From Devosia ureilytica (GTDB lineage Bacteria > Pseudomonadota > Alphaproteobacteria > Rhizobiales > Devosiaceae): DNA of 64,000 bases. A program made the position numbers and the translations under genes. Shown here one piece after another: positions 32,958-44,830 of this stretch (positions are counted from its first letter, which is position 1; each line of letters begins with the position of its first letter). The stretch is taken from NCBI RefSeq assembly GCF_024273195.1, contig NZ_JAMZCU010000001.1:186001-250000 (forward strand), read 5' to 3'. The notes under the pieces were generated by a model. It did not search any database. It worked only from the letters and a program-made list of their open reading frames with translations, and was not told the origin of the DNA.

Positions 32958-34136
32958 CTATGGCTGCTGGGGCGTGCGCAAGCCAAGTTCTGCAAGGATT
33001 TCATCGGTGTGCTGCCCAAGAAGGGGCGGCGGTGCATCGATCCCGGGGCCGTCATGTTCGAAGCGGAAGCCGGCATTGAGAATATGTGTGCGGCCAACCG
33101 CATCGTTGGGCACGTCGATGGGGAGATGCAAGCCCCGGTCCTTGAGTTGCGGCAAGTCCAGAACTTCACGGAGGGGGCGGACAGCGCCCGCCGGGACGCC
33201 AGCATCAGACAGGATCTGTTCCCATTCAAGAGCGGTCCTGGTCTTGAAGGCGGCCGCCAGTTCCGCCTGCAAGGCGGTGTCGTGCGCGATGCGGCTGTCC
33301 CCATCGACAAAGCGCGGATCAGCGATCAGGTCGGGGCGCTCCAGCGCCTTGCAGAGGCGCTCATACTGGTTTTGCTGGACGGCGCCGATGGTAATGGGCG
33401 CGTCGCTGGTTTCGAATGTATCGGCCGTCGGCGCCAGGGAGAAACCGCGATTGCCCGTGCGCACGGGTTCGGTGCCCGAAATGACGAGTGGATTGACCAC
33501 CGAGGCCATCATCACCAGCGACGCATCCAGCATGGACATGTCGATATATTGACCACGGCGCTCCGGATCGCGCTCGCGCTGAATATAGGCCGACTGGATG
33601 GCAAAGGCCGCGAGCAGCGCCGAATAGGTATCGACGAGGGGGAAGCCAACGCGCATTGGACCGCTGTCCGGCTCGCCCGATAGACTCATAAGTCCTGAAA
33701 CGGATTGGATAATCTGGTCGATGGCCGGATAATCGCGCATCGGGCCGGACTGCCCATAACCCGAAATCGAACAAAAAATCAGGCTGGGGTGGTCCTTGCG
33801 CAGGGCCTCATAGCCTAGGCCCAGGCGATCAATGACGCCGGGGCGGAAGTTCTCGACAACAATGTCGCTGGTGCCGATCAGACGTCGCGCGGCCTCTCGG
33901 CCGGCGTCGGATTTGAGATCTAGGACAATGGACTTCTTGCCCGCATTGGCGCCGATAAAGGGCTCGGCCATGCCGCGCAGTTCGCGTCTCTGCGTATAAT
34001 TGCGCAGTACATCGCCAGTAGGCGGTTCGACCTTGATGACCTCGGCGCCCAGCAGGCACAGGAAATGCGTTGCCAGGGGGCCGGCAATGACGTGACTGAA
34101 ATCGGCAATCCTGACGCCAGCCAATGGTTGAGCCAA
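32958..34136 (-). CDS. Class III (CaiB/BaiF) CoA-transferase 1
   Basis: 392 residues, full length. Class III enzymes move CoA between a thioester and a free acid via an aspartyl-CoA intermediate. Seen: GVRIADFSHVIAGPLATHFLCLLGAEVIKVEPP, NAGKKSIVLDLKSDAGR, VVENFRPGVIDRLGLGYEAL, and the catalytic Asp in VGFPLVDTYSALLAA. The start codon is TTG with GAGGAGG 7 bases upstream. It is transcribed away from the MarR-type gene and other cluster genes and carries a palindromic operator (34155-34173) in its promoter. The substrate is unknown. Confidence 0.87.
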   Translation of the reverse strand: MAQPLAGVRIADFSHVIAGPLATHFLCLLGAEVIKVEPPTGDVLRNYTQRRELRGMAEPFIGANAGKKSIVLDLKSDAGREAARRLIGTSDIVVENFRPGVIDRLGLGYEALRKDHPSLIFCSISGYGQSGPMRDYPAIDQIIQSVSGLMSLSGEPDSGPMRVGFPLVDTYSALLAAFAIQSAYIQRERDPERRGQYIDMSMLDASLVMMASVVNPLVISGTEPVRTGNRGFSLAPTADTFETSDAPITIGAVQQNQYERLCKALERPDLIADPRFVDGDSRIAHDTALQAELAAAFKTRTALEWEQILSDAGVPAGAVRPLREVLDLPQLKDRGLHLPIDVPNDAVGRTHILNAGFRFEHDGPGIDAPPPLLGQHTDEILAELGLRTPQQP

Positions 34137-34154: not shown

Positions 34155-34173
34155 TAGTTCAGGAAATGAACTA
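34155..34173. promoter_or_regulatory. Probable MarR operator O1 (promoter of CoA-transferase 1)
   Basis: TAGTTCA-N5-TGAACTA, perfect 7-bp arms, lies 18-37 bases before the CoA-transferase start. A TTGACA (34192 down to 34187) sits upstream on the same strand as a possible -35. The palindrome has the same sequence and spacer length as the site at 34805. Confidence 0.75.
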
Positions 34174-34199: not shown

Positions 34200-34721
34200 T
34201 CAGTCGTCAGCGTCCTCTGCTGATAGGCCGCCGCTGGCGCGACGCGTGTCGCTCCGGCTAATCAGGTGCGCCAGCAGGCGATTGAGCAGGGCAAATAGCT
34301 GCTTCTGCTCAGCCTCGGAAAACGGTTCAATCAGCGCTTGATGCTGATCCGCCATGCGGGCCTGAATCCGCGAGTAGCGTTCTTCTCCGGCCGGAGTCAG
34401 GAACAGGGCATTATAGCGTTTGTCCTGGGCCACTTTTTCGCGCCGCACGATGCCGCGATCCTCAAGTTCTTTGATCACCTTGGTGACCGCAGACTTCTTC
34501 AGCACGAGCGTTGAGGCGACGTCTTGTTGCGATGTGCCGGGATTGAGCCCGATCAGGCAGATGACGACAATTTCGCCCTGCTGGGCGCCGACGTCGGCGT
34601 AAAAGTCCGCATTTTCGGCGCGGACGTGAGCGCGAAGGGCACGCGTTAGGAAGGGAATGTTACCCAGAAGGTAACCCAGCTCCATGCCGTTGTTCGCGTC
34701 CTCAGTGTCGTGGTCGGTCAT
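34200..34721 (-). CDS. MarR-family transcriptional regulator of the CoA cluster
   Basis: 173 residues. Winged-helix core: TSQQDVASTLVLKKSAVTKVIKELEDRGIV is the recognition region and EKVAQDKRYNALFLTPAGEE the wing, as in MarR regulators of aromatic or acid catabolism. Effector unknown. It lies between CoA-transferase 1 and the divergent dehydratase-like genes, and three matching palindromes occupy promoters of the cluster, so it is the obvious repressor. The ATG at 34721 has GGGGA about 5 bases upstream; ATG 34733 is possible. Confidence 0.87.
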   Translation of the reverse strand: MTDHDTEDANNGMELGYLLGNIPFLTRALRAHVRAENADFYADVGAQQGEIVVICLIGLNPGTSQQDVASTLVLKKSAVTKVIKELEDRGIVRREKVAQDKRYNALFLTPAGEERYSRIQARMADQHQALIEPFSEAEQKQLFALLNRLLAHLISRSDTRRASGGLSAEDADD

Positions 34722-34789
34722 GGTCGTCCCCATCCCTGGCTGGTGGTGACTATCGAGCAAACCAGATCGAGTCAAACTGCCGCGGCCCC

Positions 34790-34823
34790 TTGACACAACG
34801 TCAATAGTTCATAATGTGAACTA
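34790..34823 (+). promoter_or_regulatory. Sigma-70-type promoter with MarR operator O2 for the dehydratase-like operon
   Basis: TTGACA (34790-34795), 16-base spacer, TAATGT (34812-34817). The palindrome TAGTTCA-TAATG-TGAACTA (34805-34823) covers the -10 element, so a bound repressor would block polymerase. The gene starts 16 bases downstream of the palindrome. Confidence 0.78.
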
Positions 34824-34838
34824 AACAGAGGGCGTGTG

Positions 34839-35954
34839 GTGACGACTGTTATCGGACAGACTGCTGCAGCGGGAGAATTGCTGGAGTCAGCTTGCGCTGC
34901 GGCGGACCGCTTAGGGGATAGCGAAAGCTTGCCCCGGATCGGGCTTTTCGGTCTCGGGGTTCCCGAGGGACTGGTCGCGGCGGCCGGAAGCGTCTGCATC
35001 CATGTGAATTTCGGCGCTTCTCCAGACAACGAGCCGATGCGCGATGTCATCGAGCCCTTCGTGGACCATGAGGTGCGGGTGTTTCTCAACCGCTTTGCCC
35101 TCGGCGACTTCAATGGCCTGGCGGGGGTGGTTTTTGCGCGCGACGATGCGGCGGCGCTGACTGCCTATCAGTATGCGACCGAGTGGGTGCGGCAAGGGCG
35201 GGCTCCTGTCGGAACGCCACCGCTCTTCCTTTTTAATCTTGTGCATTCCCGCACGGTTGCGGCCCAAAAGTTCAATCGCATCCAGTGTGACAAGCTGGTG
35301 AATTTTCTGGTTCGGGTTGGTCTCGACCGGCCCGGCGATGCGGCGATGTCGGCAATGGCCGCGCTATCCAGGCGCCGTGATGGGCTTCTCCAGGCTGCCA
35401 GGGCCGTGCCGGGCGCGTTGACGACGCAGTGGCGCAATGCTGGCCGTTTCATGAGCGTTGCGGCGCATACCGAGCTGCTGGAGCGCGCTGTTGCCGACTT
35501 CGACCGTGCAGAGAGGGCAGGGCCGCGTCTGGGCCTTGTCGGCTCTGCTGTGGATGATCCTGGCTTCCTTGCGATGCTGGATCGCGTCGGCGTTCTAGTC
35601 GCCGATCTGCAGGCCTATGGGCAGTTCTGGCCCGGCGCCTGGGAGCAGAAGGCCGACATTGAGGCGATGCTGGACGTATTGTCCGGGGATCCTTCATGCC
35701 CCCGAATTGTGCCGCCACAAAACCACCGCCAATCGCTCGTGGATCGCGTCGTTGCCGCCGAATGTGATCTCGTTGTCTGCCAATTGGCACAGACCGACGA
35801 CACGTTTGGTTGGGAACTCCCGGCGCTCAAAGCCGCGCTTGCGGCGCATGGGATCAGGTTCGTTCATCTCGGGTTTCGAGACCACCGCCCGGATGCCGAC
35901 TGGCTGGCAGGGGCCGAACAGAAGCTGGTTCAAGCCTTGGAGGCCGCGCCGTGA
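34839..35954 (+). CDS. 2-hydroxyacyl-CoA dehydratase-like subunit A, lacking key cysteines
   Basis: 371 residues. The C-terminal half follows the family: LVGSAVDDPGFLAMLDRVGVLVADLQAYGQFW, DPSCPRIVPPQ, and CDLVVCQLAQTDDTFGWELPALKAALAAHGIRFVHL, whose usual form is a KFCDP-containing strand. By eye alignment the Cys of FCDP is replaced (QTDDT), and the Cys of the EDxCxG segment is also absent (DLQAYG); one CD pair (RIQCDKL) remains. Canonical members bind a [4Fe-4S] cluster and dehydrate (R)-2-hydroxyacyl-CoA or reduce benzoyl-CoA. GTG 34839 is preferred on ribosome-site spacing; GTG 34836 is possible. GTGA overlap with subunit B. Confidence 0.7.
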   Translation: MTTVIGQTAAAGELLESACAAADRLGDSESLPRIGLFGLGVPEGLVAAAGSVCIHVNFGASPDNEPMRDVIEPFVDHEVRVFLNRFALGDFNGLAGVVFARDDAAALTAYQYATEWVRQGRAPVGTPPLFLFNLVHSRTVAAQKFNRIQCDKLVNFLVRVGLDRPGDAAMSAMAALSRRRDGLLQAARAVPGALTTQWRNAGRFMSVAAHTELLERAVADFDRAERAGPRLGLVGSAVDDPGFLAMLDRVGVLVADLQAYGQFWPGAWEQKADIEAMLDVLSGDPSCPRIVPPQNHRQSLVDRVVAAECDLVVCQLAQTDDTFGWELPALKAALAAHGIRFVHLGFRDHRPDADWLAGAEQKLVQALEAAP

Positions 35955-37225
35955 CCTATCAGCCCCTAGCGGCGACGGCCGCAGCGACCGACTATCAGCG
36001 CAATTGGGTCAAGCAATTGCGGACCCAGATTACGTCGGGCACGCAATATGCCTTCGTCAATGCCGATACGCCGCATGAGCTTTTTCATGCCATGGACATG
36101 CCGATCGTCACCAATCAGTGGTGGTCGGCAGTGATCGCGGCCAAGCAGCTCTCCCAATATTATTTCGACTACATGCAGGCCGAGGGCTTCCACGAGCGAC
36201 TGGCGCGCTATTCGAGCCTGCCCCTGATTGCCGAACTGGAAGGCGATGCGGAGCGGCAACCCTGGGGCGGTCTGCCCAAACCGGCCATGCTATGCGCCCG
36301 CCTCAGTGCGGACGATCATGGCAAGATTTTCTCGCTTTGGGCCGAACAAACGGGCGCGCATCTGACCCTGTTGTCTGCACCCGCAGTTCCCGACCCGGAC
36401 CCCGAATGGTGGTCCCGCGCGCGCGTGGATTGGGAAGAGCTCTATCACACAGATCGCCTTGATCTGATGGTGGGTGAGTTCGAAACCTTGATCGCAGACA
36501 TCGAGGCTTTGACGGGACGGCGTTTCGATCCCGAGGCCTTTGCGCGCTATATGGACGCCATCGACCGCCAGGAAGCCATTTTTGAAGAGGCGAGCGATCT
36601 CGTCGCAACCGCCCCGCAATGTCCCATCCGCATCGCCGAGCAAATCCCCAATGTCATGATCCCGCAATGGCATCGCGGTTCGGATTGGGCAATCGACCAC
36701 GCGCAGCGTTTCCGCGATGAACTGGCTGAGCGCGTCGAAGCCGGCGTGTCAGTCGTTGAAGACGAGAAGATCCGCATGATGTGGATTGGGGCAGGACTCT
36801 GGTTCGACACAAGTTTCTACGCGGCCTTTGAAGAAAGTCATGGCGCGGCCTTTGTCTGGTCGATGTATCTGCCCTTTGCGGCTGACGGCTATCGTCGGGC
36901 CAGCAATGGCGATCCGCTCCGGGCGCTGGCCGCGCGCGTTTCGGCCATGAATGAGCAGTTGCATCAGCCGCCCTGGATCAATGCCTGGATGGTCGAGCAG
37001 GCACGGAAATATCGCATCGATGTCGCTCTTATGCTCATCCCCCAGCATGACCGTTTTTCCGGCCACGGCTCGCTTTACGCAAAGGCGGCGCTGGAGGCGG
37101 CGGGCGTCAAAGTTATCGAAGTCTGGTCCGACATGGTCGATCAGCGTGATTGGGACCGCGATGCCGTCGTTCGCCGCATCACCCCGGTTCTCGACGCCGT
37201 GCTGGAAGAGAAGCATTTGACATAG
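35951..37225 (+). CDS. 2-hydroxyacyl-CoA dehydratase-like subunit B, lacking all three expected ligand cysteines
   Basis: 424 residues. Family features: AFVNADTPHELFHAMDMPIV (position of the PEELxxAxGxxPV motif), LPKPAMLCARL, and the ending VIEVWSDMVDQRDWDRDAVVRRI. By eye alignment the three usual cluster ligands are gone: the DLCSY Cys is Ala in ERLARYS, the ICDT Cys is Ala in LSADDHGK, and the SCKP segment reads HDRFSGHG. Only two cysteines remain elsewhere. No HgdC-type activator ATPase is in the window. Start GTG overlaps the subunit A stop. The pair may be a non-radical or scaffold derivative of the fold. Confidence 0.7.
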   Translation: MTYQPLAATAAATDYQRNWVKQLRTQITSGTQYAFVNADTPHELFHAMDMPIVTNQWWSAVIAAKQLSQYYFDYMQAEGFHERLARYSSLPLIAELEGDAERQPWGGLPKPAMLCARLSADDHGKIFSLWAEQTGAHLTLLSAPAVPDPDPEWWSRARVDWEELYHTDRLDLMVGEFETLIADIEALTGRRFDPEAFARYMDAIDRQEAIFEEASDLVATAPQCPIRIAEQIPNVMIPQWHRGSDWAIDHAQRFRDELAERVEAGVSVVEDEKIRMMWIGAGLWFDTSFYAAFEESHGAAFVWSMYLPFAADGYRRASNGDPLRALAARVSAMNEQLHQPPWINAWMVEQARKYRIDVALMLIPQHDRFSGHGSLYAKAALEAAGVKVIEVWSDMVDQRDWDRDAVVRRITPVLDAVLEEKHLT

Positions 37226-37245
37226 TTCATTGTATGAACCATTAT
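37217..37245 (+). promoter_or_regulatory. Internal promoter with MarR operator O3 for CoA-transferase 2
   Basis: TTGACA (37217-37222, inside the last codons of subunit B), 17-base spacer, CATTAT (37240-37245). The palindrome TAGTTCA-N5-TGAACCA (37223-37241, one mismatch to the other two sites) fills the space between -35 and -10. A second, weaker repeat TATGAA-N9-TTCATA overlaps it. Confidence 0.72.
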
Positions 37246-37294: not shown

Positions 37295-38437
37295 GTGGGC
37301 GCATTGGACGGTCTTAAGATCGCGGACTTCTCCTGGGTTGGTGCGGGACCGCGCGCCACCAAGGACCTTGCTGACAATGGTGCAATCGTCATCAAGATCG
37401 AGTCGCGGAAGCGGCCTGATCTGGGTCGCCTGTCGCCCCCCTTTGCCGGTGGCCAGAAAAATCTGGATGGTTCGGCTTTTTTCGCGCAGACCAACACGTC
37501 CAAGAAGAGTGTCACGATTAATCTCTCGACCCCCGAAGGCGTGGAGATTGCCAAGAAACTGATCGCCTGGGCCGATGTCGTCGTCGAAAATTTTGGTCCC
37601 GGCTATATGGAGCGGATTGGCCTGGGCTACGAGACGCTCAAGTCCATCAGGCCCGACATCATCCTGGCCAGCGTCTCGGTGGCCGGACGAACCGGGCCTA
37701 TGGCGGGGTTCCGTGGCTATGGCAATTCGGCCGCTGCCCATTCGGGCCATGCCGCATTGACCGGGTGGGCCGGCCGCGCGCCGCATATGCCGCCCCTGGC
37801 CTATGGCGACGTGGTCGCGCCCATGTTTGCCACGGTCGCGATCCTGGCGGCACTCGAACACCATGCGCGCACCGGCGAGGGCCAGCATCTCGATATTTCC
37901 CAGACCGAACCGATGGTTCATGTCATTGCCGATCTCTATGCCCATGCCAGCATGCCGGACAAGGCGGGCAACGAGGATGCGGATTATCTTTTGCATGGGG
38001 TGTTTCCATGCGCCGGGGATGATCGATGGATCGCCATCGCCATTGATAACCATGGTCAATTGACGCCCTTGGCGGACGTCCTGGAATTGACGGTGCCACC
38101 GGATGAAGCCGCTCTTGCGGAGGCAACGGCAAAATTCGAGGCCGGGGATCTCGCAGCAAAGCTGCGGTCCCTGGGCATTGCTGCTGCACCTGTTCTCGAC
38201 GGGCGCGACGTGGCGCAAAGCGCGGAATTGGCAGCGGCCGGCCATTTCGTCGCGCTCGACCATCCCGTTCTGGGATCAGCCAGGATGCCGGCGCCACCCT
38301 ATCAATTGTCTGAAACGCCCTGGGCAATGACTGCTGCGCCACTTTTGGGGGAGCATAACAGGGAAGTGCTGGGCGAGATTGCCGGGCTCTCGGATGCCGA
38401 AATTGCGCGCCTCGAAGCAGAAGGGGTGCTCGCATGA
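37295..38437 (+). CDS. Class III (CaiB/BaiF) CoA-transferase 2
   Basis: 380 residues. GLKIADFSWVGAGPRATKDLADNGAIVIKIES, TNTSKKSVTINLSTPEG, VVENFGPGYMERIGLGYETL and ARTGEGQHLDISQTE are family segments. The catalytic Asp is placed in LAYGDVVAPMFATV. First of three tandem CoA-transferase genes joined by 4-base overlaps and driven by their own operator-bearing promoter. Tandem class III transferases often form hetero-oligomers (as in benzylsuccinate CoA-transferase), so genes 2-4 may make one complex. Confidence 0.85.
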   Translation: MGALDGLKIADFSWVGAGPRATKDLADNGAIVIKIESRKRPDLGRLSPPFAGGQKNLDGSAFFAQTNTSKKSVTINLSTPEGVEIAKKLIAWADVVVENFGPGYMERIGLGYETLKSIRPDIILASVSVAGRTGPMAGFRGYGNSAAAHSGHAALTGWAGRAPHMPPLAYGDVVAPMFATVAILAALEHHARTGEGQHLDISQTEPMVHVIADLYAHASMPDKAGNEDADYLLHGVFPCAGDDRWIAIAIDNHGQLTPLADVLELTVPPDEAALAEATAKFEAGDLAAKLRSLGIAAAPVLDGRDVAQSAELAAAGHFVALDHPVLGSARMPAPPYQLSETPWAMTAAPLLGEHNREVLGEIAGLSDAEIARLEAEGVLA

Positions 38438-39522
38438 CGCTGCTCAAAGGGATCAAGGTTCTCGAAATTGCCGATGGGCTGGTCGATTTCGGTGGGCGGA
38501 TGCTGGCCGAAATGGGCGCGGACGTGGTCTCGATAAGCTCAGAGCAGGATCGTGCGAAAGAGCGCGTGCTGGCCTGGCATCATGGCAAGACGCGGCTGAG
38601 TGTCGACGATCCTGAAGCGATCATTCCGCTGGCTAGACAGGCCGATATCGTCCTTGACGGGCAGCGAAATGGAGACCGGTTCGGACTGAGTGATGTTCTG
38701 GGCCCTGACACAAAAACCATCCATGTCCGCGTTTTTGCCGAGCGCGGATCGAGCGCGCCCGCCACTGACCTGACCCTGATGGCGCAGTCGAGCCTGATGG
38801 GCGTCACCGGTGATCCAGATCGTCCGCCGCTGCGGTTTCCCGGCGAGCAGGCCTATGCCCTGACAGGTATTCAGGCGGCAACAGCGGCCTTGCTGGGCCT
38901 TTATGCCCGGCGTCGCATTGGTCACGGCCAGCGGGTGGATGTGTCGGCGCGCCAAAGCGCGACGCTCGCCAGCTATCGCGAAGCGATCATGTATGAATGG
39001 ACGGGCCGTATTGGCAGGCGCAACGGCAATTTGCTCGTGCGCGGCAAGTCTGGGGTCCGCCAGGTGTGGGAGGCCCGCGATGGGCATGTCACCTGGTCGA
39101 TGATCGACAATCCACCGATGATGCGCGCCCTTGTGGCCGTTCTGGCCGAGCAGGGTGTCGCCGGCGAGCTGTCCGACGTCGATTGGGACAATACCCTGGT
39201 CGCGGATCTCCCACAGGAAACTATCGAACGTTGGCAGGCCATTGTGGGGGAATTCTTCAAGTCCCAGGAGAAGGCGCAATTGGGCCGGTGGTCGCTGCAA
39301 AAGGGCTGGGGTCTTTCGGTCATCAATACGCCCGCCGAAGTGCGCCACAGCGAGCAACTGGCTTCGCGCAGCCTGTTTGTGCAGGTGACCGATGAGGCCA
39401 CAGGGGAGAAGGCGAGCCTGCCGGGCCCGCTATTCGTTTCGACAATCAAGCCGGTGCCACCCGCCCGGACGCTATCGGCGCCCCAACCGGCCAGTTCATT
39501 CAAGCGCTGGAGCGCGTCATGA
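38434..39522 (+). CDS. Class III CoA-transferase 3, probably non-catalytic
   Basis: 362 residues; the fold is recognisable (LLKGIKVLEIADGLVDFGGRMLAEMGADVVSI, ARRRIGHGQRVDVSARQSA) but degenerate. The N-terminal region lacks the usual R-x-KRS nucleotide-binding stretch (it reads WHHGKTRLSVD), and the catalytic Asp position aligns with Glu in LRFPGEQAYALTG. An inactive partner subunit of the neighbouring transferases is the simplest reading; altered activity is possible. Coupled on both sides by ATGA overlaps. Confidence 0.78.
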   Translation: MTLLKGIKVLEIADGLVDFGGRMLAEMGADVVSISSEQDRAKERVLAWHHGKTRLSVDDPEAIIPLARQADIVLDGQRNGDRFGLSDVLGPDTKTIHVRVFAERGSSAPATDLTLMAQSSLMGVTGDPDRPPLRFPGEQAYALTGIQAATAALLGLYARRRIGHGQRVDVSARQSATLASYREAIMYEWTGRIGRRNGNLLVRGKSGVRQVWEARDGHVTWSMIDNPPMMRALVAVLAEQGVAGELSDVDWDNTLVADLPQETIERWQAIVGEFFKSQEKAQLGRWSLQKGWGLSVINTPAEVRHSEQLASRSLFVQVTDEATGEKASLPGPLFVSTIKPVPPARTLSAPQPASSFKRWSAS

Positions 39523-40703
39523 GCGGTGCACTGGCGGAGCTCAAGGTGCTGGATTTTTCCAGGCTGCTGCCCGGCCCCTATTGCAGCTGGCTGCTGGCCG
39601 ACATGGGCGCCGAGGTGATCCGCGTGGAAAACCCGCGAGAGATCAGCAAGCAGGCCAAGGTGTTCGGATGGGACAAGCTGCCTGAGGCAGATCGGCGTCG
39701 GCTGCGCGAAACCGATATTTTGGCGCGCAACAAGCGCTCCATCCTGCTCGATATTGGGCATGAAGACGCGCTTCCAGTACTGCAGGACCTCGCCAAGGGC
39801 GTGGACATTGTTGTTGAGGACTACCGGCCCGGCGTGCTGTCCGGGCTGGGGCTGGGCTACGACGCCCTTTCGGCGCTCAATCCCGGCCTGATCTATGCCA
39901 GCCTTACTCTTTGCGGACAGATCGGTCCTTATCGCGACAAGCCGGGGCACGATCCCGTTGCTCTGTCGATTGCCGGCGTGCAGTCGCGCATTGGCGAAGA
40001 CCTGAATGCGCCGAGCTTTGCCGGCATTCCCGCGGCCGATGTGATCACCGGCAGCCATGCCGCTTTCGCTATTCTCGCCGCCGTGCATGAACGAGGCCGC
40101 ACCGGACGCGGCCGGCATGTCGATGTGGCGATGAGCGATTGCGCCATGAGCCTGTTGGTCAATGTGCTGTCGCGCTATCCCGACCCTGCAACTATCCCCC
40201 CGCGCGGTACGCGCCGGGCCGATATGGGGCTTTGGCGGACGAGAGACGGCAAGTTCATCTGCACCACCGATATGGAACCGCGCTATTGGAAGGTCTTCTG
40301 CGAGACGGTGGGACGCCCTGACTTCGTACCCTTGCAAAACAGCGTCGAAAGCCGGCCTGAAATCCGGTCGGTGCTCGAGGCTGTGTTCCTCGAAAGGGAC
40401 CAGGCCGAGTGGCTGGCCATTCTTGAAGCGGCGGGGACGCAGTTTGCGCCGGTGAACGACATCCTAGAAGCCTTGGCCGACTCGCATGTTCGGGCCAGAG
40501 GCATGGTCGTAGAAGCCGCAGGAGAAGACGGCAGGACCGTCACACAGATCGGTGCGCCGGTCCGCCTTGAGGAGGGCGGTTCCCTGCGATGGCTGGGGCA
40601 CATGCCCGGCGCCGATACCCAGTTTGTCCTGTCCCAGTTGGGAATGGACAGCCTGGAGTTCGAGCAACTGAGGAGAAGCGGCGCGCTTGGCGCCGAAAAT
40701 TAG
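39519..40703 (+). CDS. Class III (CaiB/BaiF) CoA-transferase 4
   Basis: 394 residues. ELKVLDFSRLLPGPYCSWLLADMGAEVIRVENP, LARNKRSILLDIGHED, VVEDYRPGVLSGLGLGYDAL and the catalytic Asp in GIPAADVITGSHAAF are intact; RTGRGRHVDVAMSD completes the pattern. Although closest in style to alpha-methylacyl-CoA racemases, the cluster context favours CoA transfer; a racemase cannot be excluded by eye. It ends 20 bases before the TRAP genes, probably in one transcript. Confidence 0.85.
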   Translation: MSGALAELKVLDFSRLLPGPYCSWLLADMGAEVIRVENPREISKQAKVFGWDKLPEADRRRLRETDILARNKRSILLDIGHEDALPVLQDLAKGVDIVVEDYRPGVLSGLGLGYDALSALNPGLIYASLTLCGQIGPYRDKPGHDPVALSIAGVQSRIGEDLNAPSFAGIPAADVITGSHAAFAILAAVHERGRTGRGRHVDVAMSDCAMSLLVNVLSRYPDPATIPPRGTRRADMGLWRTRDGKFICTTDMEPRYWKVFCETVGRPDFVPLQNSVESRPEIRSVLEAVFLERDQAEWLAILEAAGTQFAPVNDILEALADSHVRARGMVVEAAGEDGRTVTQIGAPVRLEEGGSLRWLGHMPGADTQFVLSQLGMDSLEFEQLRRSGALGAEN

Positions 40704-40723: not shown

Positions 40724-41737
40724 ATGAGCCTGAAACTGACGACTTGGACGGTACTGGTGACGACGGGGCTGACTGCCCTGATGGGTGGCGCAATCGCCCA
40801 GGAATTCCAGTTGAACTATGCCTCGCCCTATTCGCCAACCCACCCCTATGGTGCGGCAGACGCTGAATGGATCGAACGCATCAATGAACAGACTGATGGC
40901 CGCGTGGTCATCACGCCATTCTGGGGTGGATCGCTGATCACCAGCCGCGAGGGCGTAGATGAACTCGCAGCTGGCGTCGCTGACATTTCCTACATCGCGC
41001 CGATCTACGCACGTTCGGGTTATGACCTTAACCGTCTGACCCCGCAGCTGTTCTACGGTTATGCCGACGCCCAGGATGTCCTGAGCGTCTATATGGATCT
41101 GTGGGAAGAGTATCCGCAATATGCCGAAGAACTCGACGGCGTTAAGGTGCTGGGGTTCAACGTCGGTACCCCCATGCACTTGATGTTGCGCGAAAAGCCC
41201 TTTGAGAAGATCGAAGATCTCCAGGGCCTGCGCATCCGTTCGGCGGTGGACTATGTCGGAGCCCTTGCCAGCTTCGGCGCCGAAGGTGTTACAATGCCCA
41301 TGACGGACACCTATCCGTCGCTGCAGCGCGGAGTTCTCGATGGGGTCATTGCACCATACGAGGCGCTCAAGTCTTTGAGCTTTGCGGAAGTCATCAACTA
41401 TTATTCCGAGCTGCCCCATAGCCGCGGCGCCTATCCATCGCGCGCCATGAATGGAGATGTCTGGGCCAGCCTGCCAGCAGATATCCAGCAGGTGTTCGAG
41501 GACAATATCGAGTGGCTGACCCAGGCGACCTATGAAAACGCCCAGGCAGCGGAAGACGATGGCAAGGCCTATGGCGAGGAACAGGGCGTGGTATTTAATG
41601 CCGTCGATCCCGCAGTCGTCGCCACCTATTCCGAAGCCTTTGCGGAATCGGCCAAGACGACGGCCGAGCAGCTAGACGCCGCTGGCCTGCCGGGCACGGA
41701 AATTCTCGGCAAGATCCGTGCCGCGCACGACGAATAG
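40724..41737 (+). CDS. TRAP transporter solute-binding protein (DctP family)
   Basis: 337 residues with a signal peptide cleaved near GAIAQEF. Family segments: TDGRVVITPFWGGSLITSREGVDELAAGVADI, FEKIEDLQGLRIRS (the conserved carboxylate-binding Arg is in LRIRS) and VTMPMTDTYPSLQRGVLDG. It captures an organic acid in the periplasm for the DctQM membrane proteins. An excellent GGGAGGAA lies 6 bases before the ATG. A 12-bp hairpin with a UUCG loop follows, likely keeping this mRNA part abundant. The ligand is unknown, presumably the acid activated by the adjacent CoA-transferases. Confidence 0.9.
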   Translation: MSLKLTTWTVLVTTGLTALMGGAIAQEFQLNYASPYSPTHPYGAADAEWIERINEQTDGRVVITPFWGGSLITSREGVDELAAGVADISYIAPIYARSGYDLNRLTPQLFYGYADAQDVLSVYMDLWEEYPQYAEELDGVKVLGFNVGTPMHLMLREKPFEKIEDLQGLRIRSAVDYVGALASFGAEGVTMPMTDTYPSLQRGVLDGVIAPYEALKSLSFAEVINYYSELPHSRGAYPSRAMNGDVWASLPADIQQVFEDNIEWLTQATYENAQAAEDDGKAYGEEQGVVFNAVDPAVVATYSEAFAESAKTTAEQLDAAGLPGTEILGKIRAAHDE

Positions 41738-41745
41738 ATCCCTCC

Positions 41746-41773
41746 GTGCCGCGCATCTTCGGATGCGCGGCAC
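41746..41773 (+). terminator. 12-bp UUCG hairpin between binding protein and small permease
   Basis: GTGCCGCGCATC-TTCG-GATGCGCGGCAC is a perfect stem on an extra-stable UUCG tetraloop, 8 bases after the dctP stop. ACC TTAAGG follows rather than a T-tract, so it looks like an mRNA-stabilising or partial terminator element rather than a full terminator. Confidence 0.8.
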
Positions 41774-41793
41774 ACCTTAAGGGCGGAGCAGCC

Positions 41794-42309
41794 ATGAAAA
41801 CCTTTGAAACCCTGTTGCGACGCCTCTGCGCGGCGGCCGCCTTTGTGGGTGTAGCCGCCATTCTTTCGCTGATGGCCCTCACTGTCATTACCGTCATCTT
41901 CCGGGCAATCAGCATTGCCTTTCCGGGCACCTATTCGTTGTCAGAACTGCTCCTTATTCCGGCGGTCAGTTGCGCGCTTGCCTATGCGGCCATGCAGGGT
42001 GAGCACACCCGTGTCACCCTTTTTGTGGACCGGATCCGGTCGCGGCGCCTGCGTCTTGGGCTCGAGGGCACAATGACCTTTCTGGGCTCACTGTTCTGGG
42101 TCGCGATTGCCTGGGCCACCATTAAAGAAGCACTGCGGCGGATGGCTCAGAACGAGCTTTCTCCCATCATCAATGTGCCGGTTGCACCGTTCCGTTGGGC
42201 CATGGCGGCCGCGATCATCCTTCTCTGCGTCGTCTTGATGTTTCAGGCAATCAGACTGTGGCGCGGGGAAGAAACTGAAGACGATAGGGGCGGGGACTAC
42301 ACCAAATGA
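41794..42309 (+). CDS. TRAP transporter small permease (DctQ family)
   Basis: 171 residues, four membrane segments. ALTVITVIFRAISIAFPGTYSLSELLLIPAVSCALAYAAMQGEHTRVTLF contains the usual DctQ pattern (E-x4-x-G.H..v). Start ATG has GGCGGAG 6 bases upstream. Overlaps dctM by ATGA. Confidence 0.88.
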   Translation: MKTFETLLRRLCAAAAFVGVAAILSLMALTVITVIFRAISIAFPGTYSLSELLLIPAVSCALAYAAMQGEHTRVTLFVDRIRSRRLRLGLEGTMTFLGSLFWVAIAWATIKEALRRMAQNELSPIINVPVAPFRWAMAAAIILLCVVLMFQAIRLWRGEETEDDRGGDYTK

Positions 42310-43598
42310 CTGTTACGATCGGTTTTATCGGTCTTGGAATTCTCTTCGGCTTCATCGCGCTTGGCATGCCAATCGGCTTCGCCATGGGGCTTGTGGGTTT
42401 TGTCGGCTTCGCGGTGTTGGTGAGCCTGGATGCCGCAGTCGTTCGAATTGGTGTCACCGCCTATGATCTGGCAACCAATTACGCCATAGGTACCATCCCG
42501 CTCTTTCTTTTCATGGCGCACATACTGTTCGCCTCCGGCATTGGGCGCGACCTTTATGACTTTGCCTCCAAATGGATGGGCCGCCGCCGTGGAGGGCTCG
42601 CCATGGCAACTGTTGGGGCGTCGGCGGGCTTTGCTGCGGTGAGCGCTTCATCGCTTGCGACCACGGCTACCATGGGTCTCGTGGCCATGCCCGAGATGCG
42701 CAAGAACAATTACAACCTCTCGCTGGCCTCAGGCAGCGTTGTAGCCGGTGGGACAATCGGCTCATTGATCCCCCCTTCGGGGATGTTCATCATCTATGGC
42801 ATCCTGACGGAAACCTCGATCGGCAAGATGTTTGCTGCCGGGATCATTCCGGGGATTTTGCTGGCCCTGTTCTATATTGTGACCATCGCAATCTGGTGCC
42901 GGATTGATCCCAATGCCGGTCCGCGCGGGCCAAAGTTCACACTGCGGGAAAAGCTTTGGAGCTTCACACGCACCGGTGAAGTCATATTCCTGTTTACACT
43001 GGTCATGGGCGGGATCGTTCTGGGGTGGTTTACGCCCACGGAGGCCGGCGCCATCGGTGCTTTCGGGGCGATCATCATTTCGGTGGCGCGCAGACGGCTG
43101 AATTGGGAGGCGGCACGTAGGGCCATTTATGCCACTCTCAAGACGACGGGCATGATTTTTGGCATCCTGTTCGGAGCCTTAGTCTTCAATTCCTTTGTTA
43201 CAGCCAGCACCATTCCGTTGCATATCGTTGAGTTTGTTACGCAAAGCGGTCTGCCAAGCATGGCGGTGCTGGCGCTCGTACTGCTGGTTTATTTCGTGCT
43301 GGGCATGGTGCTCGATGCTTCGGCAATGATGACACTGACCATTCCGCTGTTCTTTCCGCTGATGATGGATCTGGGCTTTGATGCGGTCCTGTTCGGGGTG
43401 CTTGTGGTGCGCATGACTGAAATTGCACTGATCACCCCGCCCGTGGGCATGAATGTCTACATTCTTTCCGGGGTCGCCAAGGACGTCCCACTGGACAAGA
43501 TCTTCAAAGGCGCCTTGCCCTTTGTGGCCGCGGACATATTGCACGTTGCGATGCTCATTGCCTTTCCCTTGCTGGTCCTGTGGTTGCCAAGCTTGTGA
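42306..43598 (+). CDS. TRAP transporter large permease (DctM family)
   Basis: 430 residues with about twelve membrane segments. GMPIGFAMGLVGFVGF at the start, FLFMAHILFASGIGRDLYD, GGTIGSLIPPSGMFIIYGILTETSIGKMFAAGIIPGI and VLDASAMMTLTIPLFFPLM are typical DctM segments; PPVGMNVYILSG near the end is diagnostic. It is the sodium-driven translocating subunit and completes the TRAP set. Confidence 0.9.
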   Translation: MTVTIGFIGLGILFGFIALGMPIGFAMGLVGFVGFAVLVSLDAAVVRIGVTAYDLATNYAIGTIPLFLFMAHILFASGIGRDLYDFASKWMGRRRGGLAMATVGASAGFAAVSASSLATTATMGLVAMPEMRKNNYNLSLASGSVVAGGTIGSLIPPSGMFIIYGILTETSIGKMFAAGIIPGILLALFYIVTIAIWCRIDPNAGPRGPKFTLREKLWSFTRTGEVIFLFTLVMGGIVLGWFTPTEAGAIGAFGAIIISVARRRLNWEAARRAIYATLKTTGMIFGILFGALVFNSFVTASTIPLHIVEFVTQSGLPSMAVLALVLLVYFVLGMVLDASAMMTLTIPLFFPLMMDLGFDAVLFGVLVVRMTEIALITPPVGMNVYILSGVAKDVPLDKIFKGALPFVAADILHVAMLIAFPLLVLWLPSL

Positions 43599-44830
43599 CC
43601 GAGCCGAAGCCTCCAGGTTGGGGCCTCGTGGCCACAACCGGTGTTCTGACCGGCATGGGCCATGGCTTTGTCGCCTTTGCCGTGTCTGCTCTGCTCAAGC
43701 CCATCGCCCTGGACCTCGACACCGGGCGAGGCGTGGTATCCACGGCCATCGGCCTGGGCAGGTTGGCATCTGGCTTGATTTCACCGTTTGTCGGGCGGCT
43801 GGCCGATTTGTCGGGGCCGCGGCTGGTCGTGGCTTTCGGCATGACCCTGACCGCCGTCGGGCTGGTTGTCCTCGGATTTGCGCAAACGGAAGCCTGGCTT
43901 TACTTCGCTTGGTCCCTCTTGGTGTCGGTTGGCGTCGCTGCTGGCTTTACCGTCGCGCTCGACAAGCTGGTCATTGGGACAGGCCAAGGTCGGCGCGGCA
44001 TGGCGCTGGCCGTTCGATTCTCGATAGCAGCAGTCGTGTCCACGGTACTTGTGCCAACAGTCACTATTTTGGTCGAAGCCTTGGGTTGGCGAGCGACGTG
44101 TTTCATCTGGGCGGCAGTGATCATAATGATGCTGCCAATTCCTCTGCTTGCGTTCGGTCCTTCCAGCTCTGCGCCAAAGCCCGTCCGGCAGTCCACGGAC
44201 ACGCCCTCAAACACGCGAAGCATTTTGCGCAATCCCACATTCTGGCTGGTCGCCCTGGCTTTCACTGCTCAAGCGGCGGTTGTGACTGGGCTTTCGGTAC
44301 ATCTGGTGCCGTTAATGACCGACACCGGATTGCCGGCGGCCCAGGCCGGGGTGATATTTGGTAGCATGATCCTGCTCTCCGTGCCGGTTCGTCTCATCAC
44401 TGGTCGGATTGCCGACAAGGCCTCCCCGGATTTGCTGCCGGCCCTGCTGGCCGGGTTGTTCGTTTTGCAGGCTGCCTGTGTCGGCCTATTTGCTGTGTGG
44501 CCGAATTCAGCCAGCACTTTGATCCTCATCCTGGCACAGGGCATAGGGGCAGGGGCGCCAACACTGGTCGTGCTGCTCATGTGCGCGCATTTGTTTGGAG
44601 AGGAGCGCTTTGGCTCGGTGCAAGGCATGCTGATGGCGCTGCAAGTGCCTGGGACCGCCACGGCACCCATCATCGCGGGAGTGATTTATGATCAGCTTGG
44701 CAGCTATCAGCTGGCAATCGGCATATTCGCTTTAGTGCTTTTGCTGGCTGCGGTTTGCATGGCCCTGTTGTCGCGCCATGCCTCCCGAACGGGCCCAGGA
44801 GTTGGAGTCGTCGGGCCCGCGCCAAAATAG
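43595..44830 (+). CDS. MFS transporter at the end of the CoA/TRAP cluster
   Basis: 411 residues with twelve membrane segments. PFVGRLADLSGPRLVVAFGMTL is the MFS loop after helix 2; RLITGRIADKASPDLLPALL is its counterpart in the second half. It resembles the monocarboxylate (MCT/OFA) group. A GTG at 43595 gives a 4-base GTGA overlap with dctM; GTG 43580 is an alternative. A second carrier beside a TRAP system may export a product or take up a related acid. Confidence 0.8.
   Translation: MTEPKPPGWGLVATTGVLTGMGHGFVAFAVSALLKPIALDLDTGRGVVSTAIGLGRLASGLISPFVGRLADLSGPRLVVAFGMTLTAVGLVVLGFAQTEAWLYFAWSLLVSVGVAAGFTVALDKLVIGTGQGRRGMALAVRFSIAAVVSTVLVPTVTILVEALGWRATCFIWAAVIIMMLPIPLLAFGPSSSAPKPVRQSTDTPSNTRSILRNPTFWLVALAFTAQAAVVTGLSVHLVPLMTDTGLPAAQAGVIFGSMILLSVPVRLITGRIADKASPDLLPALLAGLFVLQAACVGLFAVWPNSASTLILILAQGIGAGAPTLVVLLMCAHLFGEERFGSVQGMLMALQVPGTATAPIIAGVIYDQLGSYQLAIGIFALVLLLAAVCMALLSRHASRTGPGVGVVGPAPK

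Follow-up and report, generated by a model that had tools for sequence, protein, structure and literature searches.

A 2-hydroxyacyl-CoA dehydratase-like protein pair of Devosia ureilytica without cluster cysteines: a candidate acid-base enzyme in a probable catabolic locus

In canonical 2-hydroxyacyl-coenzyme A (CoA) dehydratases, the cluster of the beta subunit is reduced by an activase, after which the electron moves to the cluster of the substrate-binding alpha subunit (PMC11574389). Here we describe two overlapping genes, encoding subunits A and B, in a stretch of 64,000 nucleotides of Devosia ureilytica (contig NZ_JAMZCU010000001.1, positions 186,001 to 250,000; hereafter the window, to which all coordinates refer). 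We propose, at about even confidence, that A pairs with B in a heterodimer with the fold of the 2-hydroxyacyl-CoA dehydratases and benzoyl-CoA reductases. It would need neither cysteine-bound clusters nor an activase driven by adenosine triphosphate (ATP), and would act on a CoA ester by acid-base instead of ketyl-radical chemistry, in a dedicated catabolic locus. In the titles and abstract openings of the open-licence papers that we searched, no description of a cluster-free branch of the HGD-D superfamily was found. The two genes and their diagnostic residues are as follows, with similarity given as Pfam bits, the predicted local distance difference test (pLDDT) of the AF2 models and Foldseek template modelling (TM) scores.

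34836..35954, + strand: subunit A, HGD-D family, 372 residues, counterpart of HadC/BzdN (Pfam 51.3 bits; AF2 pLDDT 92.0; Foldseek 8s02_B BzdN TM 0.80, 3o3n_B 0.76)
35951..37225, + strand: subunit B, HGD-D family, 424 residues, counterpart of HadB/BzdO (Pfam 129.9 bits; AF2 pLDDT 91.1; Foldseek 8s02_A TMq 0.81, 3o3m_A TMq 0.83 / TMt 0.88)
35064..35066, + strand: D77 of A, first canonical cysteine column (of 37 class I proteins that have a residue at this column, 36 have Asp and 1 has Glu)
35145..35147, + strand: D104 of A, second canonical cysteine column (R102, two residues earlier, is Arg in 72/72)
35796..35798, + strand: D321 of A, third canonical cysteine column (Asp/Glu in 73/73)
36203..36205, + strand: A85 of B, first canonical cysteine column (A/P in class I, C in class II, P in class III)
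36308..36310, + strand: A120 of B, second canonical cysteine column (S/A in class I, C in class II, G in class III)
37049..37051, + strand: D367 of B, third canonical cysteine column (D in 41/41 class I and 8/8 class III; N, T or S in 25/28 class II)
36830..36832, + strand: E294 of B, candidate catalytic residue (Glu in 77/77 B proteins, Phe in 7/7 canonical B proteins; kept in both class IV proteins)

Reading of the open reading frames (ORFs) places the start of A at GTG 34836, with a second in-frame GTG at 34839 and the stop at 35954. B starts at GTG 35951 and stops at 37225, and the two genes overlap by the four bases GTGA. Both proteins score above the Pfam HGD-D cut-off of 28.4 bits, and a profile search found no other HGD-D match in the 3.8 Mb genome. 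AlphaFold models, built from family alignments, were compared with the PDB using Foldseek. The model of B fell on BzdO, MbdO and HadB and that of A on BzdN and HadC, and all 20 of the 20 matches per model with E <= 0.001 belonged to the HGD-D superfamily. Hence, A is the counterpart of the relay (beta) subunit and B of the substrate (alpha) subunit, and the family fold that a preliminary description of this DNA had recognized in both proteins is supported by profile and structure alike. In contrast, the cut-offs of the more specific NCBIfam models were missed by a wide range: B reached 40.2 bits against 750 for the HadB equivalog NF052455, 38.2 against 448.6 for bzdO and 22.9 against 350 for the double-cubane model NF040772, while A reached 23.9 against 453.8 for bzdN.

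Ligand columns were set by alignment with canonical proteins of other genomes. The window pair has lost all six cysteines that hold the clusters in such proteins, with A85, A120 and D367 at the three columns of B and D77, D104 and D321 at those of A. For B these are the same three substitutions that the preliminary description had read by eye. In A it had noted the loss of two cysteines together with a retained CD pair; that pair, C151-D152, lies far from the second ligand column (104) and is Ala-Asp in the relative L005, so that A retains no ligand cysteine. Other cysteines were considered as substitute ligands and rejected: B has just C115 and C224, and these, like C151 and the other cysteines of A, lie off the ligand columns.

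Homologues were collected by one scan of genome contigs with two short peptide patterns, which yielded 78 loci (numbered with L) from 131 candidate stretches; W57, N234, M236 and W240 of B sit inside these patterns, so that their invariance is partly by construction. Together with the window, 79 B proteins were obtained, of which 41 (including the window) fall in class I, 28 in class II and 8 in class III; two were too partial to class. Class I occurs mostly in Rhizobiales and Rhodobacterales, and class II in Sphingomonadales, Steroidobacter, Sterolibacterium, Acidobacteria, a Myxococcales bin and others. Three phyla are represented, Pseudomonadota, Acidobacteriota and Myxococcota, the latter two by metagenome-assembled genomes only. 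In the genus of the window, the 11 other genomes searched gave no match, a sporadic distribution of the kind that horizontal transfer would produce. Three genomes carry both a class I and a class III pair (L010 and L084; L078 and L079; L006 and L008 in G056), and because of this co-occurrence the two classes may serve different substrates.

Some sequences were lost to gene calling and alignment. The codon-scored caller mis-started some genes and gave no A for L014, L018, L022, L062, L068 and L083, although A is present in the genome of L014. The fold alignment (A3) leaves out the partial or mis-started B proteins of L009, L047, L077 and L083. The first tree leaves out L047, L077 and L083, and the second drops ten further rows, namely nine near-duplicates and one canonical protein. 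For the alignment of A (A4), proteins without a start giving 300 to 395 residues were left out, and 64 of the other 72 were retained. The B gene of L047 (Oceanicola sp. S124) has an apparent frameshift, its match of 1268 bases not being a multiple of three, which may be a sequencing error.

The loss of ligands recurs throughout much of the family. At positions 85, 88, 120 and 122 of B, cysteine is found in none of the 41 class I and none of the 8 class III proteins, and at the ligand columns of A in none of 73 proteins (one has a gap at two of the three columns). In all 41 class I proteins residue 85 is A or P, residue 120 is S or A and residue 367 is D, so that the ligand loss is not a matter of chance. 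It is not uniform, however, since all four positions are cysteine in 28 of 28 class II B proteins. In the resulting motif CxxC...CxC, the cysteines at 85 and 120 occupy the first and second canonical columns, whereas those at 88 and 122 are additional. At the third canonical column, 25 of the 28 have N, T or S and one (L045) has cysteine. A fourth class, known from two genomes (L145 and L146), is again cysteine-less at the cluster site and has A and B in one frame. These fusions of about 790 residues (L145:8757-11123 and L146:7788-10175) match the family profile of A at residues 1-328 and 4-338 (125.7 and 160.3 bits) and that of B at 376-785 and 372-777 (420.6 and 411.7 bits), and the best Pfam stretch in each is the B half. 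As classes I and III are cysteine-less there, any chemistry common to all classes cannot need a cysteine-bound cluster at the B site.

A single clean loss of the cluster was considered. A tree computed with the ligand columns left out splits class II into two groups among the cysteine-less classes, requiring three changes between cysteine and no cysteine. Approximately unbiased (AU) tests, however, are compatible with a single class II clade (p 0.37) as well as with a single cysteine-less clade (p 0.30), so that the B cluster site may have been lost once or several times.

The activase is missing as well. The activase model TIGR00241 had no match across the 3.8 Mb genome, which extends to the whole genome what had earlier been noted for the window. 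One protein of 316 residues matched PF01869 and was rejected as an activase: we take it to resemble an N-acetylglucosamine kinase, and it has no CAAGTGRF motif, which does occur in the activase next to the canonical pair of L007. To extend the search to the family, 45 of the 78 loci were taken and L043 was excluded, the remainder lying in 43 genomes (numbered with G). TIGR00241 had no match in 37 of these genomes, a weak one in 1 and matches above the cut-off in 5. For 13 of the 15 matches above the cut-off, an HGD-D match other than the family pair is no more than 1.5 kb away, and the other two (G413 C90 and G430 C156) lie on a contig without a listed HGD-D match. In four of the five genomes the family pair is on a different contig, and in G438 it is on the same contig, about 16 kb off. 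In L150, from the alphaproteobacterium Rhizobium leguminosarum, a dehydratase pair and two annotated activases were observed on a plasmid typed as conjugative.

A relay subunit without ligands in every class (0/73) is what one would expect once no activase feeds A. The loss of the relay ligands in all classes, in genomes most of which have no activase, is the strongest argument against radical chemistry. Hence, A-B belongs to the superfamily by fold and domain, but the missing ligands and activase set it apart from both the 2-hydroxyacyl-CoA dehydratases and the benzoyl-CoA reductases.

Conservation is concentrated in B. Across 72 loci, B was more conserved than A in 2544 of 2544 comparable locus pairs, with median within-class identities (B vs A) of 67% vs 36% in class I, 60% vs 29% in class II and 71% vs 37% in class III. 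Three canonical comparisons gave identities (B/A) of 31/36, 31/34 and 72/59. Residues K65, R117, R169, E294, W246, W303 and Y314 of B are invariant in 77 of 77 proteins, and R329, N334, E335 and H338 in 76 of 76; each of them is absent from at least six of the seven canonical B proteins. Y87, E272 and R275 are the same in all seven canonical B proteins. Class IV keeps E294, Y306, Y314 and R329. In A, the fixed residues are E73 and R102 (both 72/72), W326 (73/73) and an acid at 321 (73/73), and the old relay pocket has thus become charged. The conservation of B is the strongest argument that B is catalytic, and from these alignments we read B as an enzyme with a rebuilt site rather than a product of decay.

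The pair is embedded in a compact set of genes with the following features. The small and large permeases of the tripartite ATP-independent periplasmic (TRAP) transporter were named by eye and place.

32958..34136, - strand: T1, class III CoA-transferase (PF02515 390.5 bits; catalytic column Asp; closely related copies accompany A-B in other classes)
34157..34171, unstranded: palindrome GTTCAGGAAATGAAC upstream of T1, probable MarR operator (motif and genome scan)
34200..34733, - strand: MarR-family regulator, divergent from A (PF01047)
34807..34821, unstranded: palindrome GTTCATAATGTGAAC between MarR and A, probable MarR operator (motif and genome scan)
37225..37239, unstranded: palindrome GTTCATTGTATGAAC between B and T2, probable MarR operator (motif and genome scan)
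37295..38437, + strand: T2, CoA-transferase with Asp in the catalytic column (PF02515; column alignment)
38434..39522, + strand: T3, short homologue of CoA-transferases in which Tyr replaces the Asp of the catalytic column; may be the partner of T2 (PF02515; column alignment)
39519..40703, + strand: T4, CoA-transferase with Asp in the catalytic column (PF02515; column alignment)
40724..41737, + strand: DctP, TRAP solute-binding protein (PF03480 124.4 bits)
41746..42309, + strand: DctQ, TRAP small permease (ORF; conserved cluster c8)
42306..43598, + strand: DctM, TRAP large permease (ORF; conserved cluster c2)

The PF02515 matches confirm the four CoA-transferase genes that the preliminary description had placed beside the pair, though T3 has Tyr in the Asp column, which we take to be catalytic. 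Such genes (CoA_transf_3, CaiB family) lie within 8 kb in 72 of the 79 loci. With one locus compared per class, T1 is 56% identical to its relative in class I (L043), 50% in class II (L071) and 45% in class III (L084), while the copy of L051 is just 33% identical. In L071 (class II) the transferase is a fusion, and T2 matches its C half at 37% identity. T3 would correspond to the N half, with which it shares 21%, a background identity. Because the class II transferase is fused, T3 may, by analogy, form a heteromer with T2. The class IV locus L145 combines its fused AB with relatives of the class I genes at the T2, T3 and T4 positions (59, 48 and 57% identical to L026, L011 and L016), another CoA-transferase and TRAP genes. 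Loci with a TRAP large permease cluster nearby number 38/41 in class I, 18/28 in class II and 2/8 in class III, and 35 of the 41 class I loci have a MarR gene no more than 8 kb from B; identities of neighbour clusters rest on one representative each.

The palindrome GTTCAN5TGAAC occurs three times in the window against 0.01 expected, and these three are the only perfect sites in the 3.8 Mb genome, where a control pattern read backward occurs once. With a longer form and one mismatch allowed, three further places were found (controls 5 forward, 1 reverse), and weaker sites could exist elsewhere in the genome. In the 40 other class I loci, 49 palindromes lie between -2000 and +1400 of the B start, in 25 of the loci, and only 3 elsewhere in 680 kb. 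The same interval had none in the other 15 of these 40 loci, and none was found in the class II and III loci. The MarR protein scored 69.1 bits with the Saro_0803 regulator model, under the cut-off of 200. The palindrome-marked set of the window consists of T1, MarR, A, B and T2-T4 with TRAP. If this set is complete, AB is the likeliest member to alter the carbon skeleton or its substituents.

Taken together, we propose the following sequence of events. An acid would enter through the TRAP transporter, and a class III CoA-transferase, most likely T1, would form its CoA ester. B would then bind this ester at the place equivalent to that in HadB/BzdO, to judge from the alignment, and convert it by redox-neutral acid-base chemistry, most likely an elimination or addition of the hydro-lyase kind. 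Candidate residues replacing the cluster are E294, present in all classes seen, and R329, together with the N334-E335-H338 of classes I-III. A probably completes the pocket and the dimer, the conserved E73, R102 and D/E321 lending charge to its old relay pocket, while T2/T3 and T4 may recycle or redistribute CoA. The MarR regulator would control the transcription units by binding the three matching palindromes. The natural A-B fusions of class IV and the confinement of the palindromes to the locus both count in favour of this proposal.

Several points weigh against it. Five of the 43 family genomes do have activases (four carriers of class II and one of class I, L036), and the family pair could share an activase in those five. 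Class IV lacks R117, N334, E335 and H338, so that part of the proposed site is not universal, and class II has its four invariant cysteines, with which some members may still carry a cluster or metal. One of the three canonical comparisons (72/59) likewise has B above A. The nearness of the new B residues to the CoA-ester site is suggested by alignment, 'acid-base elimination' is a guess at the type of reaction, and the classes need not share one reaction. Finally, members that differ at the two search patterns would have been missed by our collection.

The former ligand columns could instead hold another metal, with Asp or Glu in place of cysteine, that activates the thioester or water. They contain D77, D104 and D321 in A and D367 in B, with D or E at 321 in 73 of 73 proteins, and the four cysteines of class II (28/28) suggest that a metal can still be held at the B site. 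However, at the second column of A, 10 of 37 class I proteins have S or G and 6 of 7 class III proteins have S, and the invariant R102 of A and R117 of B (classes I-III) adjoin the columns, where salt bridges fit at least equally well; we regard a swapped metal site as unlikely. That the pair still works by radicals, with iron-sulfur clusters held by unusual ligands and another source of electrons, seems improbable to us. This reading would suit the CxxC...CxC of class II B, and Asp, Ser, His and Glu are named as rarer cluster ligands in PMC11574389. It is at odds with the two misplaced cysteines among the 424 residues of window B, with the 0 of 73 A proteins that have a ligand cysteine and with the 37 of 43 genomes that have no activase.

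The preliminary description had inferred either a CoA-ester function with different chemistry or a binding or scaffold role, and different chemistry appears to be the better half of that choice. A non-catalytic AB, serving the CoA-transferases as a CoA-ester-binding chaperone, scaffold or sensor, would explain why the cofactor was lost and why CoA-transferases lie alongside in 72 of 79 loci. A pure scaffold is nevertheless less likely for B, because B outconserves A in every comparison and has near-invariant charged residues of its own. Its median conservation of 60-71% within classes, its invariant polar residues that most of the seven canonical B proteins lack, and a palindrome-marked class I locus that seems to hold no other obvious enzyme of carbon chemistry make a non-catalytic role rather unlikely in our view. 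That the pair is a decaying remnant of a canonical dehydratase is hardly credible: ligands and activase are lost and the B gene of L047 is apparently frameshifted, but in 76 of the 79 loci the B frame stays open over the whole match, two of the remaining three are cut short by the end of a contig, and the pair is conserved across many genera with gene order and palindromes in common.

Our proposal of an acid-base enzyme can be extended, tentatively and with slightly less than even confidence, to its origin. A radical dehydratase scaffold may have dropped its activase and relay cluster, and then its catalytic cluster in several branches, the acyl-CoA pocket being reused for a cofactor-free reaction in an undescribed catabolic pathway; the four cysteines of class II would then mark survivors of an intermediate stage. 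If this holds, there is a cluster-free branch within a superfamily whose known chemistry is that of ketyl radicals. It would offer a natural series (three cysteines in both subunits, four in one subunit, none) for testing the roles of the clusters and how a radical enzyme becomes a non-radical one, and the compact locus with its own regulator would mark an unknown catabolic pathway. Two plasmid-borne class II relatives are labelled '2-hydroxyacyl-CoA dehydratase family protein' (B) and 'hypothetical protein' (A). Neither label is evidence of a function and, if our reading is true, proteins with the former label in such bacteria may not perform that reaction.

Other neighbours differ among branches. 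In the window, an ORF of a major facilitator superfamily (MFS) transporter follows DctM (43580-44830) and by eye resembles the proteins of cluster c24, which follow DctM in five class I loci. In class I loci of the Maritimibacter/Pararhodobacter branch (L033, L035, L036, L038-L043, L081), the TRAP genes are followed by two adjacent genes of the cytochrome P450 protein cluster, joined in L041-L043 by two flavin adenine dinucleotide (FAD) monooxygenase genes. Class II neighbours within 8 kb include a CapA-like protein (23/28), a CocE/NonD hydrolase (14) and a TonB receptor (13). The CapA/PGA_cap protein (L064, L071, L147, L148 and others) matches the lasso-peptide tryptophan epimerase MslH, and may serve the pathway as an epimerase instead of being a capsule protein. 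A quinone-oxidoreductase-like gene is present in 7 of 8 class III loci. A role connected with hydroxycinnamate was not adopted, as a relative of hydroxycinnamoyl-CoA hydratase-lyase (c68) is found nearby in only two loci, L045 (465 bits against a cut-off of 276) and L086. Reading the substrate from DctP was likewise rejected: its nearest solved proteins, 4n6d, 4pgn and 4nap, are all modest matches, of which 4pgn and 4nap presumably bind indole acids.

Among described systems, (R)-2-hydroxyisocaproyl-CoA dehydratase HadBC (PDB 3O3M/N/O) and its kin FldBC and HgdAB share the two-subunit HGD-D fold with the window pair, A being similar to HadC and B to HadB. The company of CoA-transferases is presumably alike as well, since we take HadA/FldA, beside HadBC/FldBC, to be class III CoA-transferases. 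In contrast to HadBC, the window pair has no cysteine ligands in either subunit, no activase was found, B has new near-invariant residues, and the hosts of the family are generally regarded as aerobes. The class I benzoyl-CoA reductases BzdNO (8S02) and MbdON (9GAI) are the best PDB matches of both subunits in profile and fold, but A-B differs from them in its missing ligands and activase and in scores far under the bzdN and bzdO cut-offs. The double-cubane cluster protein DCCP (6ENO, 7YYL) likewise has the superfamily fold, with the ligands that the window pair lacks. A further comparison is with the class II relatives, such as those of Novosphingobium mathurense (L064) and Peristeroidobacter (L071), which belong to the same family and combine A-B with CoA-transferases and often TRAP genes, whereas their B subunits have four invariant cysteines (CxxC, CxC) where the window has none.

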